Of a stretch of 64,000 nt of DNA, positions 6,528 through 57,904 are shown one piece after another. Source of the stretch: Rhizobium sp. Q54 (GTDB lineage: Bacteria; Pseudomonadota; Alphaproteobacteria; UBA2966; CAIVPW01); the NCBI GenBank assembly GCA_945947575.1, contig CAMEYM010000006.1:43905-107904 (forward strand). Reading direction: 5' to 3'. A program made the position numbers and the translations under genes. The first letter of the stretch is position 1, and each line of letters begins with the position of its first letter. The notes beneath the pieces were generated by a model. The model saw only the letters and a program-made list of their open reading frames with translations, made no database searches and had not been told where the DNA came from.

Positions 6528-8006
6528 ATGACGCAAACAGCACGCAAGCTGTTCTTGCCGGCTGCCGTCTTCACGGCATTCGTATCGATCTTCGCGTTCG
6601 GCAACGACGCGCTGCGCGAGTTCTCGGGCCGCGCGTTGGGGCGCACGTTCGACTACCTGCCGTACTTCCTCGGCATCGGTGCATGGGTGTCGGCGGCGTT
6701 CTTCGCCAACCGCGTCGTCAACGTCTTCCTATGGCAGACGGTGTTCCAGCGCATGACCGGCGCCCAGGCGCCGCGTCTGCTCACCCAGATCACCGGTGCG
6801 GCGATCTTCTTTCTCGCGGCCCTCGGCATCATCGGCATCGTCTTCAACCAGTCCCTGACCGGCGTGCTGGCGGCGTCCGGCGCCGTCGGCTTGGTGCTCG
6901 GCCTGGCGTTGCAGACGATGATCCGCGACGTGTTCTCCGGCATCGCCATCAACATCGAGCGCCCGTTCCAGCTCGGCGACTACATCTCGGTCACCGAACG
7001 CAGCCTCGTCCACGGCGGCGGGCGTGTCGAAGAGGTCAATTGGCGCAGCACGCGCCTGCTCACCTCCGAGGGCAGCCTGCAGGTCATTCCGAACAGCGTG
7101 CTCGGCATGGCGGTCATCACCAACTTCTCGCGCCCGACCAACACCTCGGAGTTCGAGCTCGTCGTCGTTCTCGATTTCTCGGTGGAATCCGGTCGCGTGC
7201 TGCGCATCCTCGACGCCGCGTTGAAGGAAGCCGTGCTGACCGGCGGCCCGCTGGCCGACCCCGCGCCCAAGGCGCGCATTGCCGGTCTCGATGAGAAGGG
7301 CGTGCGTTACAAGCTCAAGTACCACATCGATCCGCGCCGCGGCGGCCCCGGCAAGATGCGCCACCAGGTGCTCGACCACGTCCTGCATCACCTGCAGAAG
7401 GCCGGCCTCACCCCCGCCTATCCGAAGCAGGACACGTTCTCCGCGCCGATGCCCGAGCGCATGCTCGACGCGTTCTCCCACGGCGCCCAGCTGCTCGCCC
7501 GCGTCAGCCTGTTCCGCAGCCTGACCGACGAGGAGCGCGAAGGGCTGGCCACCAACATGATGCCGCGCCAGTTCCGCGCCGGCGACATCGTCATCCGCGC
7601 CGGCGACGCCGGCCGCTCCATGTTCGTCCTCGTCGAGGGCGTGCTCGAGGTATCGGTGCCGTCGAAGGACAGCGATGCCCTCGTCAAGGTCGGCCGCGTG
7701 CGCCCCGGCGAGTTCTTCGGCGAGATGTCGCTGCTCACCGGCGACCCTCGCTCGGCGACCGTCGCTGCCGCCAGCGCCGCGTTCGCCTTCGAGATCGACA
7801 AGGAGCAACTCGCGCCGATCCTGGACTCGCGCCCCTCGCTCGCCGAGGCGATCAGTAACGTCGTGGCCGAGCGCCAGGTCGCGATGGCCAATCCGGCGGC
7901 CGGCCCCGAGGCAGTGCCGGATGCCCGCGAGCTCAAGTCGGTATCCGACCGCATCCTCGGCGGCATTCGCCGCTTCTTCGGCCTGGCGCTGAAGCCCGCC
8001 GCCTAG
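6528..8006 (+). CDS. Mechanosensitive channel MscS family with C-terminal cyclic-nucleotide-binding domain
   Basis: MscS pore region GLVLGLALQTMIRDVFSGIAINIERPFQLGDYI; CNB domain GDIVIRAGDAGRSMFVLVEGVLEVS..GEFFGEMSLLTGDPRSATV. Confidence 0.9.
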   Translation: MTQTARKLFLPAAVFTAFVSIFAFGNDALREFSGRALGRTFDYLPYFLGIGAWVSAAFFANRVVNVFLWQTVFQRMTGAQAPRLLTQITGAAIFFLAALGIIGIVFNQSLTGVLAASGAVGLVLGLALQTMIRDVFSGIAINIERPFQLGDYISVTERSLVHGGGRVEEVNWRSTRLLTSEGSLQVIPNSVLGMAVITNFSRPTNTSEFELVVVLDFSVESGRVLRILDAALKEAVLTGGPLADPAPKARIAGLDEKGVRYKLKYHIDPRRGGPGKMRHQVLDHVLHHLQKAGLTPAYPKQDTFSAPMPERMLDAFSHGAQLLARVSLFRSLTDEEREGLATNMMPRQFRAGDIVIRAGDAGRSMFVLVEGVLEVSVPSKDSDALVKVGRVRPGEFFGEMSLLTGDPRSATVAAASAAFAFEIDKEQLAPILDSRPSLAEAISNVVAERQVAMANPAAGPEAVPDARELKSVSDRILGGIRRFFGLALKPAA

Positions 8007-9999: not shown

Positions 10000-10398
10000 C
10001 TAGACCCGCCCGGCGACCGCGGAGGAAATTGCAGCGTCCAGATCCTCGCCGACGTATGGCTTCATCAAGTGCAGAAGCCGGGGTTCCTTGTCTTTGGGCA
10101 GCTCGGCATATCCGGTGGCGACGATAATCGGCAGGTTCGGCCACTTGGAGCGGATCTCGGCCGCGAGCTGGGTCCCGGTCATGCCCGGCATGGCCTGGTC
10201 GGTCAGGACCACATCGACCGGCGTGCCGGCGTGCAGAATCTCGAGCGCCTTGCGCGGGGAGGGTGCCTCCAGCACCTGATGGCCGAGGCTCTCCAGCACG
10301 TCCAGCGTCGACATGCTGATCAGCGCGTCGTCTTCGACGAGCAGCACCCGGCATGGCGCCGCGTGCCGCGCCCGCTCGACGGTCTCCAGCTTTTCCAT
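10000..10398 (-). CDS. Single-domain response regulator (CheY-like)
   Basis: CRVLLVEDDALISMSTLDVLESLGH..DVVLTDQAMPGMTG; start set at internal Met MEKLETVERARHAAPCRVLLVEDD. Confidence 0.85.
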   Translation of the reverse strand: MEKLETVERARHAAPCRVLLVEDDALISMSTLDVLESLGHQVLEAPSPRKALEILHAGTPVDVVLTDQAMPGMTGTQLAAEIRSKWPNLPIIVATGYAELPKDKEPRLLHLMKPYVGEDLDAAISSAVAGRV

Positions 10399-51725: not shown

Positions 51726-53018
51726 CTAGTGCGCGGCGGGCGCGCGCACCGCAGCGATGTCGCCCTTCAGGTCGGGCCACGGCTCACGCGTCGTGAACTG
51801 TGCCCGCATGAACAGCAGGATCGCCTCGAGGTCCTCGTCCCGGATCGTGAGCGGAGGCATCGAGCGATCCCGCGAGCCGGGCGGCGGCCGGATGCCTTCG
51901 ATGGAGATGCGCGCGACGTTGCGTGCATCCGGCATATTGATGGTGGTCGTCATGCCAAGCGGCAACGGCTGGCCGTTGATCTTGTGACAGTTGGCGCACA
52001 GCCGGCCGAACTCCGTCGCGCCCTTCGCCAGCGCCGGGTCCGTCGGCTTCGGCGGTGAGTCCGGATTCCATTCGCGCGCGCGCGCGAATGCAATGACCTC
52101 ATCGACCTTCGCCTGCTCGACCGGGCGCTGGAAGGTGGCGAGGTACTCGGCCATCGCGTAGACGTCGTCCTCTTTCTGGTCGTACAGGTGGCGAATGATC
52201 GGCGTCATCGGACCCGCCGTGATGCCGTGCTGCTTGTCCCAGCCGTCGAAGAGGTAGTTGACGAGGGCGTTGGCGCTCCACGGGATCGGAGCGAGCGACG
52301 CGGTGTTGAGCGGCGGCACGTACCAGCCCTCGGCCTGACCGCCCGCGAACTTCGAAGCACCGCCCTTCTCGCCGCCGATGATGTTGAGCGGAGAGTGGCA
52401 GGAGCCGCAGTGGCCGAGGCCCTCCACGAGGTACGCGCCGCGGTTCCAGTCCTCGTCCTTGGTTGTGTCGGGCTCGAACGGACCCTTCTTGAGGAACAGG
52501 AAGTTCCAGCCTGCCAGGCTCAGGCGGATGTTGAACGGGAACGGCAGCTTGGTCTCGGGTGCCTGGTAGTTCACCGGCCGGACGCCCGCCATCAGGTAGG
52601 CGTAGATCGCCGCGATGTCTTCGTCGGTGGTCAGCGTGTAGTGGATGTACGGGAAGGCAGGGTAGAGGTACTGGCCTTCGCGATCGACGCCTTCGCGCAT
52701 GGCGCGTGTGAACGCTTCGAGCGACCAGCCGCCGATGCCGGTAGCGACGTCGGGCGTAATGTTGGTCGTGTAAATGGTGCCGAACGGAGTCGGCAACGCC
52801 AAGCCGCCGGAGAATGGTTCGCCGCCCGGACGGGTGTGGCAGACCTCGCAGTCGCCCATGCCGGTCATCAGCTTGCCGTGCTCGAGGACGGCGCGGCTGA
52901 AGGTGTTGGCAGCCGGTGCAGCTGCCAGCGCCGGGATCGCGTCGTAGCGCATGGCCCATGCCAACGCGCCGACCAACACGACCAAACCGAGCACTACGAT
53001 TCCCAGTAGAAAGCGCAT
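51726..53018 (-). CDS. Membrane-anchored triheme cytochrome c (alcohol/aldehyde dehydrogenase cytochrome subunit-like)
   Basis: Three heme motifs CEVCH, CGSCH, CANCH; N-terminal TM. Confidence 0.9.
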   Translation of the reverse strand: MRFLLGIVVLGLVVLVGALAWAMRYDAIPALAAAPAANTFSRAVLEHGKLMTGMGDCEVCHTRPGGEPFSGGLALPTPFGTIYTTNITPDVATGIGGWSLEAFTRAMREGVDREGQYLYPAFPYIHYTLTTDEDIAAIYAYLMAGVRPVNYQAPETKLPFPFNIRLSLAGWNFLFLKKGPFEPDTTKDEDWNRGAYLVEGLGHCGSCHSPLNIIGGEKGGASKFAGGQAEGWYVPPLNTASLAPIPWSANALVNYLFDGWDKQHGITAGPMTPIIRHLYDQKEDDVYAMAEYLATFQRPVEQAKVDEVIAFARAREWNPDSPPKPTDPALAKGATEFGRLCANCHKINGQPLPLGMTTTINMPDARNVARISIEGIRPPPGSRDRSMPPLTIRDEDLEAILLFMRAQFTTREPWPDLKGDIAAVRAPAAH

Positions 53019-53225: not shown

Positions 53226-54545
53226 CTACAGGGACGACCGCAGCCGTCCCATCGCACCGAGAACTTGGAAGTGGCTGAGTAGCACCGCGCTGCGGCCGCT
53301 GACGACTCCGCCGGCCGCCTGGAAGAGCTGGTCCTCGACACCGAGCAGATCGAGCAGCTTGGCATCGCCCGCCTCGAAACGGTCGTCGAACGAGAGGCGG
53401 CCGTCCTCGGCCGACTTGAGCGCGTCCTCGAGCGACGGCATGCGTGCCAGCGCGACCTCGTGCGCGTTGAAGGAGACTCGCACGCCCTGCTCGAGCAGGC
53501 GGCCCGACTCATCCTGGCGCAGGCGCGCTTCGTTGAGCAGCGCGCGCGACGCCTCGAGCTGCGCCTTGTCGGCGCCGTCGTCGATCTGGATGTCGGTGCG
53601 CGGCACGGTCACCGTCTGCGCGCCCGGAGGAGCGAACGGACCCGGCTGCGATACCTGCGGTGTCTCGGTGATGCGGATGGTCAGGTTGCCCTGGGCGATG
53701 GCGACCTCATCGACGCGCACGTTGGCGCCCATGACGATGACGCCGTTCTGCTCGTCGATGACGATGCGGGCGATCTGGTCCGGCTCGACGGTCAGCTGCT
53801 CGATGTCGGTGAGGAAGCCGACCAGGTCCTGCTGATAGGGCAGCGGCACGTTAAGGCGTACGGTCGAGGCGTCCAGCGCCTGCGAGACGGGACCCCGCAT
53901 GAAGCTGTTGATGGCCTGGCTGATGCGGCGCGACGTGGTCAGGTCCGGATTGCGCAGCGTCAGGTTGAGGGAGGTCATCGCGGCGAACTCGAACGGCACT
54001 TCGCGCTCGACGATGGCGCCGTTGGACATGCGGCCCGAAGTCGGCACACCGCGGGTCACGGTCTGCGCCGCGCCGCCGGCGGTGAAGCCGCCGACCGTCA
54101 CCGAGCCCTGGGCCACGGCGTAGATCTCGCCGTCCGCGCCGAGCAGCGGGGTGACGAGGAGGGTGCCGCCCAGCAGGCTGCTCGCGTCGCCGAGGGTAGA
54201 AACGGTGACGTCGATACGCGTGCCCTGGCGGGCGAAGGGGGGCAGGTTGGCCGTCACCATCACGGCGGCGACGTTCTGGGTGTTCAAGGTGGCGTCGCGG
54301 GTGTTGACGCCCAGGCGCTCGAGCATGGCGATCAAGCTCTGGCGCGTGAACGGGGCGTTGCGGAGCGAATCGCCCGAGCCGTTCAAACCGACCACCAGGC
54401 CGTAGCCGACCAGCATGTTGTCGCGCATGCCCTCGAAATCGCTGATGTCCTTGATGCGCGGGGCGGCGCCGGCGGGCGCAACGGGCGCCAGCGCAAGGGT
54501 GGCGGCGAGGACGAGATGGAGGAAACGGGACAAAGGAATACGCAT
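53226..54545 (-). CDS. flgI: Flagellar P-ring protein FlgI with TolC-family-like C-terminal segment
   Basis: Residues 1-~322 FlgI (RIKDISDFEGMRDNMLVGYGLVVGLNGSGDSL..ETPQVSQPGPFAPPGAQTVTVPRTDIQ); residues ~325-439 resemble a TolC C-terminal region (FEAGDAKLLDLLGVEDQLFQAAGGVVSGRSAVLLSHFQVLGAMGRL). Confidence 0.9.
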   Translation of the reverse strand: MRIPLSRFLHLVLAATLALAPVAPAGAAPRIKDISDFEGMRDNMLVGYGLVVGLNGSGDSLRNAPFTRQSLIAMLERLGVNTRDATLNTQNVAAVMVTANLPPFARQGTRIDVTVSTLGDASSLLGGTLLVTPLLGADGEIYAVAQGSVTVGGFTAGGAAQTVTRGVPTSGRMSNGAIVEREVPFEFAAMTSLNLTLRNPDLTTSRRISQAINSFMRGPVSQALDASTVRLNVPLPYQQDLVGFLTDIEQLTVEPDQIARIVIDEQNGVIVMGANVRVDEVAIAQGNLTIRITETPQVSQPGPFAPPGAQTVTVPRTDIQIDDGADKAQLEASRALLNEARLRQDESGRLLEQGVRVSFNAHEVALARMPSLEDALKSAEDGRLSFDDRFEAGDAKLLDLLGVEDQLFQAAGGVVSGRSAVLLSHFQVLGAMGRLRSSL

Positions 54546-54866: not shown

Positions 54867-55280
54867 GTGAAGATCGTCGGGTCCGGACCAATCCATACGG
54901 CTGAAGCGGCGCGCGTGCGCCGCAAGCAGGCCAAGGACACGAGCTTCGCCAAGGAGCTCGAGGGAGGCGCTGGCGAAACCACGCGCCTCGCCGAGCAGTC
55001 GCGCGTCCAGACGCTCGACTCTCTGCTCGCCCTTCAGGAAGTGCCCGACGCGAACCAGCGCCGCTCTGCCGGCGTACGCCGCGGCTTCGATTTGTTGGAT
55101 CGTCTCGATGAGATTCGCATGGGCCTGCTGCAAGGTGCCATTCCTGCCGACCGGCTGACCAACCTGGTGCGCCTCGTGCGCGCGCGTCGCGACGGCGTCA
55201 TGGATCCGAGCCTGAACGCCATTCTCGACGATATCGAACTGCGGGCGATGGTCGAGCTCGCCAAGCTCGGCCAGTACTAG
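54867..55280 (+). CDS. fliX: Flagellar assembly regulator FliX
   Basis: MKIVGSGPIHTAEAARVRRKQ..FDLLDRLDEIRMGLLQGAIPADRLTNLVRLVRARRDGVMDPSLNAILDDIELRAMVELAKL; divergent to flgI. Confidence 0.88.
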   Translation: MKIVGSGPIHTAEAARVRRKQAKDTSFAKELEGGAGETTRLAEQSRVQTLDSLLALQEVPDANQRRSAGVRRGFDLLDRLDEIRMGLLQGAIPADRLTNLVRLVRARRDGVMDPSLNAILDDIELRAMVELAKLGQY

Positions 55281-55973: not shown

Positions 55974-55999
55974 CCGCCGACCAAGGATTCAACAGCAGA

Positions 56000-56030
56000 A
56001 AGGCCGGTCCAAGGGACCGGCCTTCTTGTG
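56000..56030 (+). terminator. Intrinsic terminator downstream of dksA
   Basis: AAGGCCGGTCCaagGGACCGGCCTTcttgtg. Confidence 0.85.
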
Positions 56031-56151
56031 TCTGAGCGGTTGTCCTCGAGGGACGCCTCGGCCCAGAGCGGGGAGGGGGGAGGGCCTCCCGTTGGAACGG
56101 CGCGATGATGTTGCGTCGGTTCCTGCGGAACCTCGCTGCATCTCTGCTTTC

Positions 56152-56910
56152 CTAGAAGGGCGCGATGATGTCCAACAGCTGCTGCCCGTAGCGCGGCTGC
56201 TGCACGTCGGTGATCTGGCCGCGGCCGCCGTACGAGATGCGCGCCTCGGCGATCTGCGTGTGGGCGATCGTGTTGGTGGCAGTGATGTCTTCCGGACGCA
56301 CGATGCCGGCGACGGTCAGCTCGCGCACTTCGAAGTTCACGCGCACTTCCTGACGGCCCTGGATCACCAGGTTACCGTTGGGCAGGACCTGCACGATCAT
56401 CGCGGCGACGGTGAGACTGATGGTTTCCTCGCGCTCCACCGCGCCCTCGCCCTGGAAGTTGCCGCCGCCGTTGACGCCGACCAGTGCGGTCGGATCGATG
56501 CCTTGGGGCAGCACCTTGCCGAGCTGGGTCTCGAGGCCGAACAGGCCCGGGATGCCCAACGTCTCTTCGGTGGTGCGCGCCCGCGTGGTCGTGTTGTTGA
56601 CGGTTGCCGTGTCGGCAATTTGGACGTTCACGGTCAGGATGTCGCCGACGCGTGCGGCGCGCTGGTCGCGGAAGAACGCCTTGGCACCCGGCCGCCACAA
56701 CGAGTTGGCCATCCTTGGCGCCGGATCCGGCGCCGGCAGCGGCGTCGTGATCGGCCGGTAGTCGGGCTTCTCGGTCGGGTTGGCGACCGCCGCCATGGCG
56801 GGTGGCTCGCCGATCTGAGCAATGCGGTCGACGGTATTGGCGCAGCCGCCCGCCGCGAGCAGAAGGGCGCCGGCGGCGACGGAGTGCGAAAGCTTCTTGG
56901 CTCGGATCAT
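56152..56910 (-). CDS. flgH: Flagellar L-ring protein FlgH
   Basis: Lipoprotein GGCANT; NSLWRPGAKAFFRDQRAARVGDILTVNVQIADTA; GIVRPEDITATNTIAHTQIAEARISYGGRG. Confidence 0.95.
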   Translation of the reverse strand: MIRAKKLSHSVAAGALLLAAGGCANTVDRIAQIGEPPAMAAVANPTEKPDYRPITTPLPAPDPAPRMANSLWRPGAKAFFRDQRAARVGDILTVNVQIADTATVNNTTTRARTTEETLGIPGLFGLETQLGKVLPQGIDPTALVGVNGGGNFQGEGAVEREETISLTVAAMIVQVLPNGNLVIQGRQEVRVNFEVRELTVAGIVRPEDITATNTIAHTQIAEARISYGGRGQITDVQQPRYGQQLLDIIAPF

Positions 56911-56935
56911 GGGGGCCTGTTCTTGCGAGCTCTGT

Positions 56936-57904
56936 CTAGCGGACGGCGACGTCTTGAACGGGACGGCGCGCGACGACACGCACGCGGCCCGGCCCTTCGA
57001 CGATGCCTTCGACGGTGGTCTTAGTCTGGGCGTTCATCACCTGCACGATTTCGCCGTAGCCGGCGTTGCCCAGGGCGCGTCCGGCCGCGGTCAGCTGCAG
57101 GCCGGGTCTCTCGACGATCATCGTTACGGTCGAGTTCTTGGCGACGACGATTGGCGTCTGCACGTCGCTCATACGCACCGGTTCGTTGACGCGCAGGACG
57201 CGGCGGGGAGACTGGCCGACCAACTGATCGGTTTGCGTGGCGACGCCCTGGCCCATGCGATCGGCGCGCACGTCGATCCAGGCCACGTCGGTCTGCCGGA
57301 TGACGCCGCCGGCGGCGACGACATTGACCAGCACCGGTACCTGCAGCATCTCGACGGCGCGGCCGCGCACTACGGTGCGCTGGGCATCGGCACCGGTGGC
57401 CGGAGCCACGATCGTCGCGGCGAAGGTGCCGCGCGCTGCGTCGTAATCGAGGTTCTCGACCCGCACGGTAAGCGGCGCGGTACGCGCGACTTGCAAGGTG
57501 AAGTTGGCATTGAGGATGTCGGCGACCAGGGTACGGCCGGGCGCCCGCGTTGCGAGCTCATAGTTGATTGCTTCGAGCACGACGTCCCGCGGCACCACCG
57601 CGGCGCTGCGTTCGACGGTGACGCCACGCAAGCCGCGGGGGTCCCAGGTGACGCCGTGTTCCTTTGCCAGCGCGGCTACTTCCGCGATGTTGAGCATGGC
57701 GCGCTCGCCCGGGGCAGGCGAGGGGGCGACCCGGACGGCTGCGGCGATGCCGCGCGTGCCGGTGATTTCGCCGAGCGTTACCCACGGTCCGTCGACCACG
57801 ACGACGCCGGCGGCAGTCTGCGCGGCCGCAGGGGTTGCCAGCAAGCTGGCCGACAGGACGAATGCGCCGAACGTCTTCCCAAGGGTCTTCATCGCCGTGT
57901 TCAT
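56936..57904 (-). CDS. flgA: Flagellar P-ring chaperone FlgA
   Basis: SAF-like domain VPVLVNVVAAGGVIRQTDVAWI..VGQSPRRVLRVNEPVRMSDVQTPIVVAKNSTVTMIVERPGLQLTAAGRAL. Confidence 0.9.
   Translation of the reverse strand: MNTAMKTLGKTFGAFVLSASLLATPAAAQTAAGVVVVDGPWVTLGEITGTRGIAAAVRVAPSPAPGERAMLNIAEVAALAKEHGVTWDPRGLRGVTVERSAAVVPRDVVLEAINYELATRAPGRTLVADILNANFTLQVARTAPLTVRVENLDYDAARGTFAATIVAPATGADAQRTVVRGRAVEMLQVPVLVNVVAAGGVIRQTDVAWIDVRADRMGQGVATQTDQLVGQSPRRVLRVNEPVRMSDVQTPIVVAKNSTVTMIVERPGLQLTAAGRALGNAGYGEIVQVMNAQTKTTVEGIVEGPGRVRVVARRPVQDVAVR

Follow-up and report, generated by a model that had tools for sequence, protein, structure and literature searches.

The C-terminal chain of the P-ring subunit FlgI in Salmonella, termed FlgI-IRL, comprises residues 231–346 of the mature protein and holds a flexible loop at residues 264–295; in the ring, neighbouring subunits touch through their IRL domains and residues 296–346 are ordered (PMC8298488). 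We have here analyzed a stretch of DNA of 64 000 nucleotides (the window), found where contig C6 ends in a 40-contig assembly (2.49 Mb, 95.7% completeness) of an alphaproteobacterium from a lake, in which a reading frame beginning as FlgI ends as a TolC-like outer-membrane protein of type I secretion. No report of a FlgI–TolC fusion was found in the literature searched. An earlier note on this DNA had proposed that the chimera either links flagellar and efflux architecture or marks a deletion by which flgI became fused with a tolC-type gene. We conclude that the hybrid frame is most likely real, and the scar of a broken gene rather than a new machine. The features concerned are as follows, with G and L numbers denoting genomes and fetched loci, respectively.

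53226..54545, minus strand: fused reading frame, having the 5′ part of flgI in frame with the 3′ part of tolC (HMM matches)
53578..54545, minus strand: flgI part, residues 1–322 and most of codon 323 (PF02119; identity to G002), with the signal peptide, the FlgI-IRU and FlgI-OR domains, and FlgI-IRL from its start through the flexible loop (borders from PMC8298488)
53568..53577, minus strand: 10-bp microhomology CGGCGCCGAC at the flgI/tolC join (G002 flgI, G003 tolC)
53226..53567, minus strand: tolC 3′ part, residues 327–439 and stop, being the last about 113 codons (TIGR01844; orthologous tails)
51726..53018, minus strand: cytochrome c family gene, a syntenic landmark by the tolC end (same neighbour in G001–G004)
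54867..55280, plus strand: fliX, a syntenic landmark on the far side of flgI (retained in G002)
56152..56979, minus strand: flgH (L-ring), intact, opening the remaining flagellar cluster and followed by flgA, flgG, flgF, fliL and fliM

The fused reading frame and its two halves

The reading-frame check gave a frame of 439 residues with its ATG at 54545 and its stop at 53226, at the position and on the strand given for it in the earlier note, having FlgI character through residue 323 and being TolC-like from residue 327. Pfam FlgI (PF02119) matched residues 30–329 (E 1.4e-119) with a score of 399.4 bits, above the gathering score of 25.3, and PRK05303 of NCBIfam scored 381.2, above its cut-off of 300. 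The PF02119 match covered profile positions 1–300 of 343 and stopped there, the C-terminal chain of FlgI-IRL that belongs to a full-length FlgI thereby being incomplete. It was also clear that the conserved FlgI C-terminus (..LNALGVGPRDMISILQ.IKAAGAL.A.I..) is missing, as had been noted before; this motif was present in 30 of the 31 FlgI-type frames in the fetched loci, distant phyla included, with the fused frame as the sole exception.

The likeness of the tail to the C-terminal helical region of TolC, also suggested earlier, was borne out by the profile searches, which assigned the first part to FlgI and the tail to OEP/TolC. Pfam OEP (PF02321) matched residues 319–411 with E 6.9e-5, or E 3e-5 for the tail alone (24.4 bits, above the cut-off of 22). 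TIGR01844 (type_I_sec_TolC, NCBIfam) matched residues 324–437 at profile positions 289–402 of 414 with E 1.3e-13, or E 5e-15 when the tail was searched alone, the alignment reaching the extreme C-terminal part of the family. The TIGR01844 score was 50.8 bits against a whole-protein cut-off of 225, and the fused frame lacks the two OEP repeats of the family. Using phmmer against solved structures, we found P rings for the first part and TolC, weakly, for residues 344–436. The tail was 66–84% identical to the TolC genes of sister species, a match far beyond chance, and the flgI part had 95–96% amino acid identity to the intact flgI of G002.

Compared with G002, FlgI residues 1–323 gave a dS of 0.33 and a dN of 0.02 (ratio 0.06), and the TolC tail showed six synonymous changes and one non-synonymous change in 82 codons (dN/dS 0.06); for the unfused tolC tails of G001 and G003, dN/dS was 0.22. 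Because the tail is as conserved as unfused tolC, its conservation predates the fusion. Both halves thus were constrained as separate genes, and nothing in these comparisons points to selection on the hybrid.

The join falls about at the end of the flexible loop, and the ordered last 50 residues of FlgI are therefore gone. As this lost part, from about mature residue 296 in Salmonella numbering, belongs to the lower inner P-ring domain (FlgI-IRL), the fused protein is probably non-functional. With the last 50 residues lost and flgJ missing as well, a working P ring is unlikely; the predicted product would most likely be unable to form a normal one, and cells of such a genotype are probably non-flagellated, or not flagellated by this cluster.

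The intact arrangement in relatives and the join

For comparison we used metagenome-assembled genomes of related alphaproteobacteria, of which several, to judge by isolate names, are from lakes. The closest one compared, G002 (locus L032), aligns with the window on either side of the join at about 90%, and exactly the 3.7 kb found between the two matching flanks in G002 is absent from the window. The flgI of G002 is intact, having 375 residues, the usual C-terminus and a full PF02119 match (1–343), and is followed on its own strand by flgJ (Rod-binding) and an FlgN-like gene, beyond which lie flagellin, FlbT, FlaF and FlaG-like genes on the opposite strand. Thereafter comes a tolC 3′ fragment, located 3.7 kb downstream of flgI on one contig and on the same strand, and then the cytochrome c gene as in the window. 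Locus L032 thus holds both parents of a deletion fusion on the same strand, separated by the interval that the window lacks. The order of flgI, flgJ, flbT and flagellin is conserved in G004, G005 and G007, and orthologous tolC tails were found in G001, G002, G003 and G004, all having this cytochrome c gene as their neighbour. Flagellin is preceded in G004 and G007 by genes for a DegT aminotransferase and a GNAT protein, a pair that looks like a flagellin-modification island.

The window is collinear with G002 flgI as far as ...GACGACGGCGCCGAC and with the tolC of the sister species G003 starting at CGGCGCCGACAAGGCG. The 10 bases CGGCGCCGAC at 53568–53577 are common to these two parents, as are the residues 324–326 (G-A-D), with K327 being the first TolC-only residue. 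A shared run of at least 10 bases occurred at 1.2e-4 of all flgI/tolC region pairings (about 1 in 8,000), and an identity of this kind at the join is what a microhomology deletion by illegitimate recombination is expected to leave. The junction DNA gave no match among plasmids.

The join was seen once, in a single genome of the species. A second intact flgI was not found in this genome, and none of the 40 relatives or the loci fetched from genome contigs had another FlgI–TolC fusion; among the matches listed for 385 genomes sampled in the class, there was also no other match across the junction. The earlier note had regarded both a second flgI and fusions in relatives as worth looking for. Three loci that were aligned by tblastn to residue 379 (L058, L061 and L063) were rejected as fusions, being ordinary FlgI with a longer loop.

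Flagellar genes and the tolC locus across relatives

Between the ends of the join, the window is without flagellin, flbT, flaF, the flaG-like and flgN-like genes, and flgJ. The FlbT and Rod-binding (FlgJ) families, present in G002, G004, G005 and G007, were not found anywhere in the genome carrying the fusion, and the flgJ/flbT piece has therefore not simply been moved. FliF and FlhA were also not found in this genome, which could reflect a gap in the bin; it retains FliP, FlgH and three flagellins, with fliP on contig C33 beside FliR- and FlhB-like frames (read by eye). Of the eight family genomes, G004 and G007 have FliF and FlhA, whereas neither was found in the other six (G000–G003, G005 and G006), the six-genome absence being due either to patchy loss or to repeated bin gaps of one cluster. 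Several of the genomes without FliF and FlhA still have FliP, FlgH and flagellins. In G003, a membrane protein with Fer4_5 (NosR-like by eye) is the immediate neighbour of the fliX region, in the expected place of flgI. The overall pattern fits an ongoing loss of flagella in the genus, and may also in part be produced by bin gaps. As a side observation, a large Fer4_5 membrane protein (NosR/NirI-like by eye) occurs at 10219–12447 of L033 and 16324–18699 of L034, occupying the flagellar-gene place of G003 and lying upstream of tolC in G001.

The genes flgH, flgA, flgG, flgF, fliL and fliM, as well as fliP, are intact and conserved, and decay of the remaining flagellar genes was rejected with dN/dS values of 0.06–0.45. 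Since the flagellar genes left in the window are intact and constrained, and show no trace of long-standing decay, the deletion would need to be recent. The contigs of G001, G002 and G003 all stop near the dksA–flgH gap (55974–56152 of the window); a repeat at dksA–flgH was rejected as the cause of these breaks, this DNA being single copy in the genome studied.

The tolC gene itself is cut in several ways. In G001 it is found from PVEDAVQ.. onward, joined to an antisense HlyD C-terminus (by eye; no Pfam match), G003 has only its end, beginning at YPRISLDL, with a shorter stretch of that antisense HlyD-like end attached, and in G002 its end, from about LSFNAHEV, is joined to an antisense GNAT end. 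The contigs of G004, G005 and G007 stop in or close to tolC. The locus is thus break-prone, tolC having either been lost by a different rearrangement in each lineage or being located at a population-variable spot where assemblies break. Because tolC is broken differently in each relative, the prior is raised both for a deletion and for an artefact at this site. The truncations or contig ends of tolC, each at a different position, are located at 7622–9412 of L034, 7225–7800 of L033, 5450–5863 of L032, the start of L036 and the end of L038.

We also observed that the longest identical run with G002 is 190 bp at 100% (53287–53476 of the window against about 5510–5700 of L032). It lies in the tolC remnant, with nearby flanks being 80–90% identical, and ends at the tolC break of G002 itself; this run reflects either recent recombination between lineages or an assembly oddity.

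Readings of the fused gene and comparison with known systems

With a probability of roughly 0.74, we hold the fused frame to be the scar of a chromosomal deletion that joined flgI to an already eroding tolC. That reading, the second of the two offered earlier, has strong support from the unbroken gene order of G002 and from the 10-bp microhomology at the join. The ancestor would have been organized much as G002, with the cytochrome c gene, tolC (minus strand) and flagellin/flbT/flaF (plus strand) on one side, and the flgN-like gene and flgJ (minus strand), flgI (minus strand) and fliX on the other. Illegitimate recombination between the CGGCGCCGAC of flgI and that of tolC would then have removed at least 3.7 kb of DNA with the 5′ part of tolC, flagellin, flbT, flaF, the flaG-like and flgN-like genes, flgJ and some 50 codons at the 3′ end of flgI, leaving the two stumps in frame by chance. 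The signal peptide of FlgI and the larger part of the P-ring fold would be retained in the product, which in place of the lower inner-ring C-terminal chain would carry an orphan helical hairpin of TolC.

An unlikely alternative, although the one to be taken most seriously, is that the join exists only in the metagenome-assembled contig, as an assembly or strain-mixture artefact formed where variants or weak coverage meet. The genome is in 40 contigs, the relatives are metagenome-assembled too, and tolC is a trouble spot in every one of them, with contig ends in G004, G005 and G007 and differing joins in G001–G003. Furthermore, tolC and flgI were under purifying selection until recently, and four separate recent truncations are much to ask. 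However, an overlap of 10 bp is below the k-mer or overlap lengths usually employed by assemblers and is typical of illegitimate recombination, and the displaced flgJ and flbT DNA was found on no other contig. The adjacency of tolC and antisense HlyD is, moreover, common to G001 and G003, which come from different sampling campaigns, and speaks for real rearrangements. We infer that the event took place in cells rather than in the assembly.

It is very improbable that the chimera is a P-ring subunit that acquired a helical hairpin of TolC and is under selection for a function at the peptidoglycan or outer membrane. In favour of this are an open frame, a retained FlgI signal peptide, a conserved TolC tail (dN/dS 0.06 against G002) and two long tail helices, residues 325–391 and 397–438, predicted by AlphaFold with pLDDT of about 66–87. 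That model was, however, of low confidence as a whole (mean pLDDT 50.5, pTM 0.27; 11-row alignment) and informative for little but the helical tail, and the tail is conserved also in unfused copies, so that selection acted on tolC before the fusion. Lacking the other repeat, a lone TolC hairpin cannot make up the trimeric channel. The chimera was furthermore encountered in a single genome, and both the lower inner-ring segment and flagellar neighbours, including flgJ, have been lost; the link between flagellar and efflux architecture is on these grounds not supported.

Equally improbable is a FlgI that works with its C-terminus replaced and the TolC tail as an inert appendage. The join nearly coincides with the end of the flexible loop, and folding of the upstream domains could thus be preserved, but the segment of residues 296–346 is ordered in the ring, where neighbouring IRL domains are in contact (PMC8298488), its motif is kept in all but one of the FlgI-type frames, and flgJ is missing. 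We also regard it as very improbable that the FlgI–TolC protein is produced and retained as a subunit of a P-ring-like ring in the periplasm, bearing a helical hairpin, by a lineage abandoning swimming and reusing a partial basal body.

As a deletion scar, the fused frame is an ordinary example of how deletions make hybrid genes, here at the start of flagella loss in small-genome freshwater bacteria, and such chimeras should not be counted as new domain architectures. More promising than the fusion is the wider locus, where every related species has its tolC truncated at another position.

Compared with known systems, the product resembles FlgI (PF02119, PRK05303) over residues 1–323 with the signal peptide and the IRU and OR domains, but has 113 foreign residues in place of the last about 50 (Salmonella mature 296–346). 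It shares with the TolC family (TIGR01844, PF02321) its last about 113 residues, the C-terminal helical segment and the cytochrome c neighbour, but comprises only the last quarter of such a protein, with neither a signal peptide of TolC's own nor the first OEP repeat. As in microhomology deletion fusions, there are same-strand genes, a lost interval, a short identity at the join and a hybrid in frame by chance, whereas the event is here deduced from the parental sequences of sister species.
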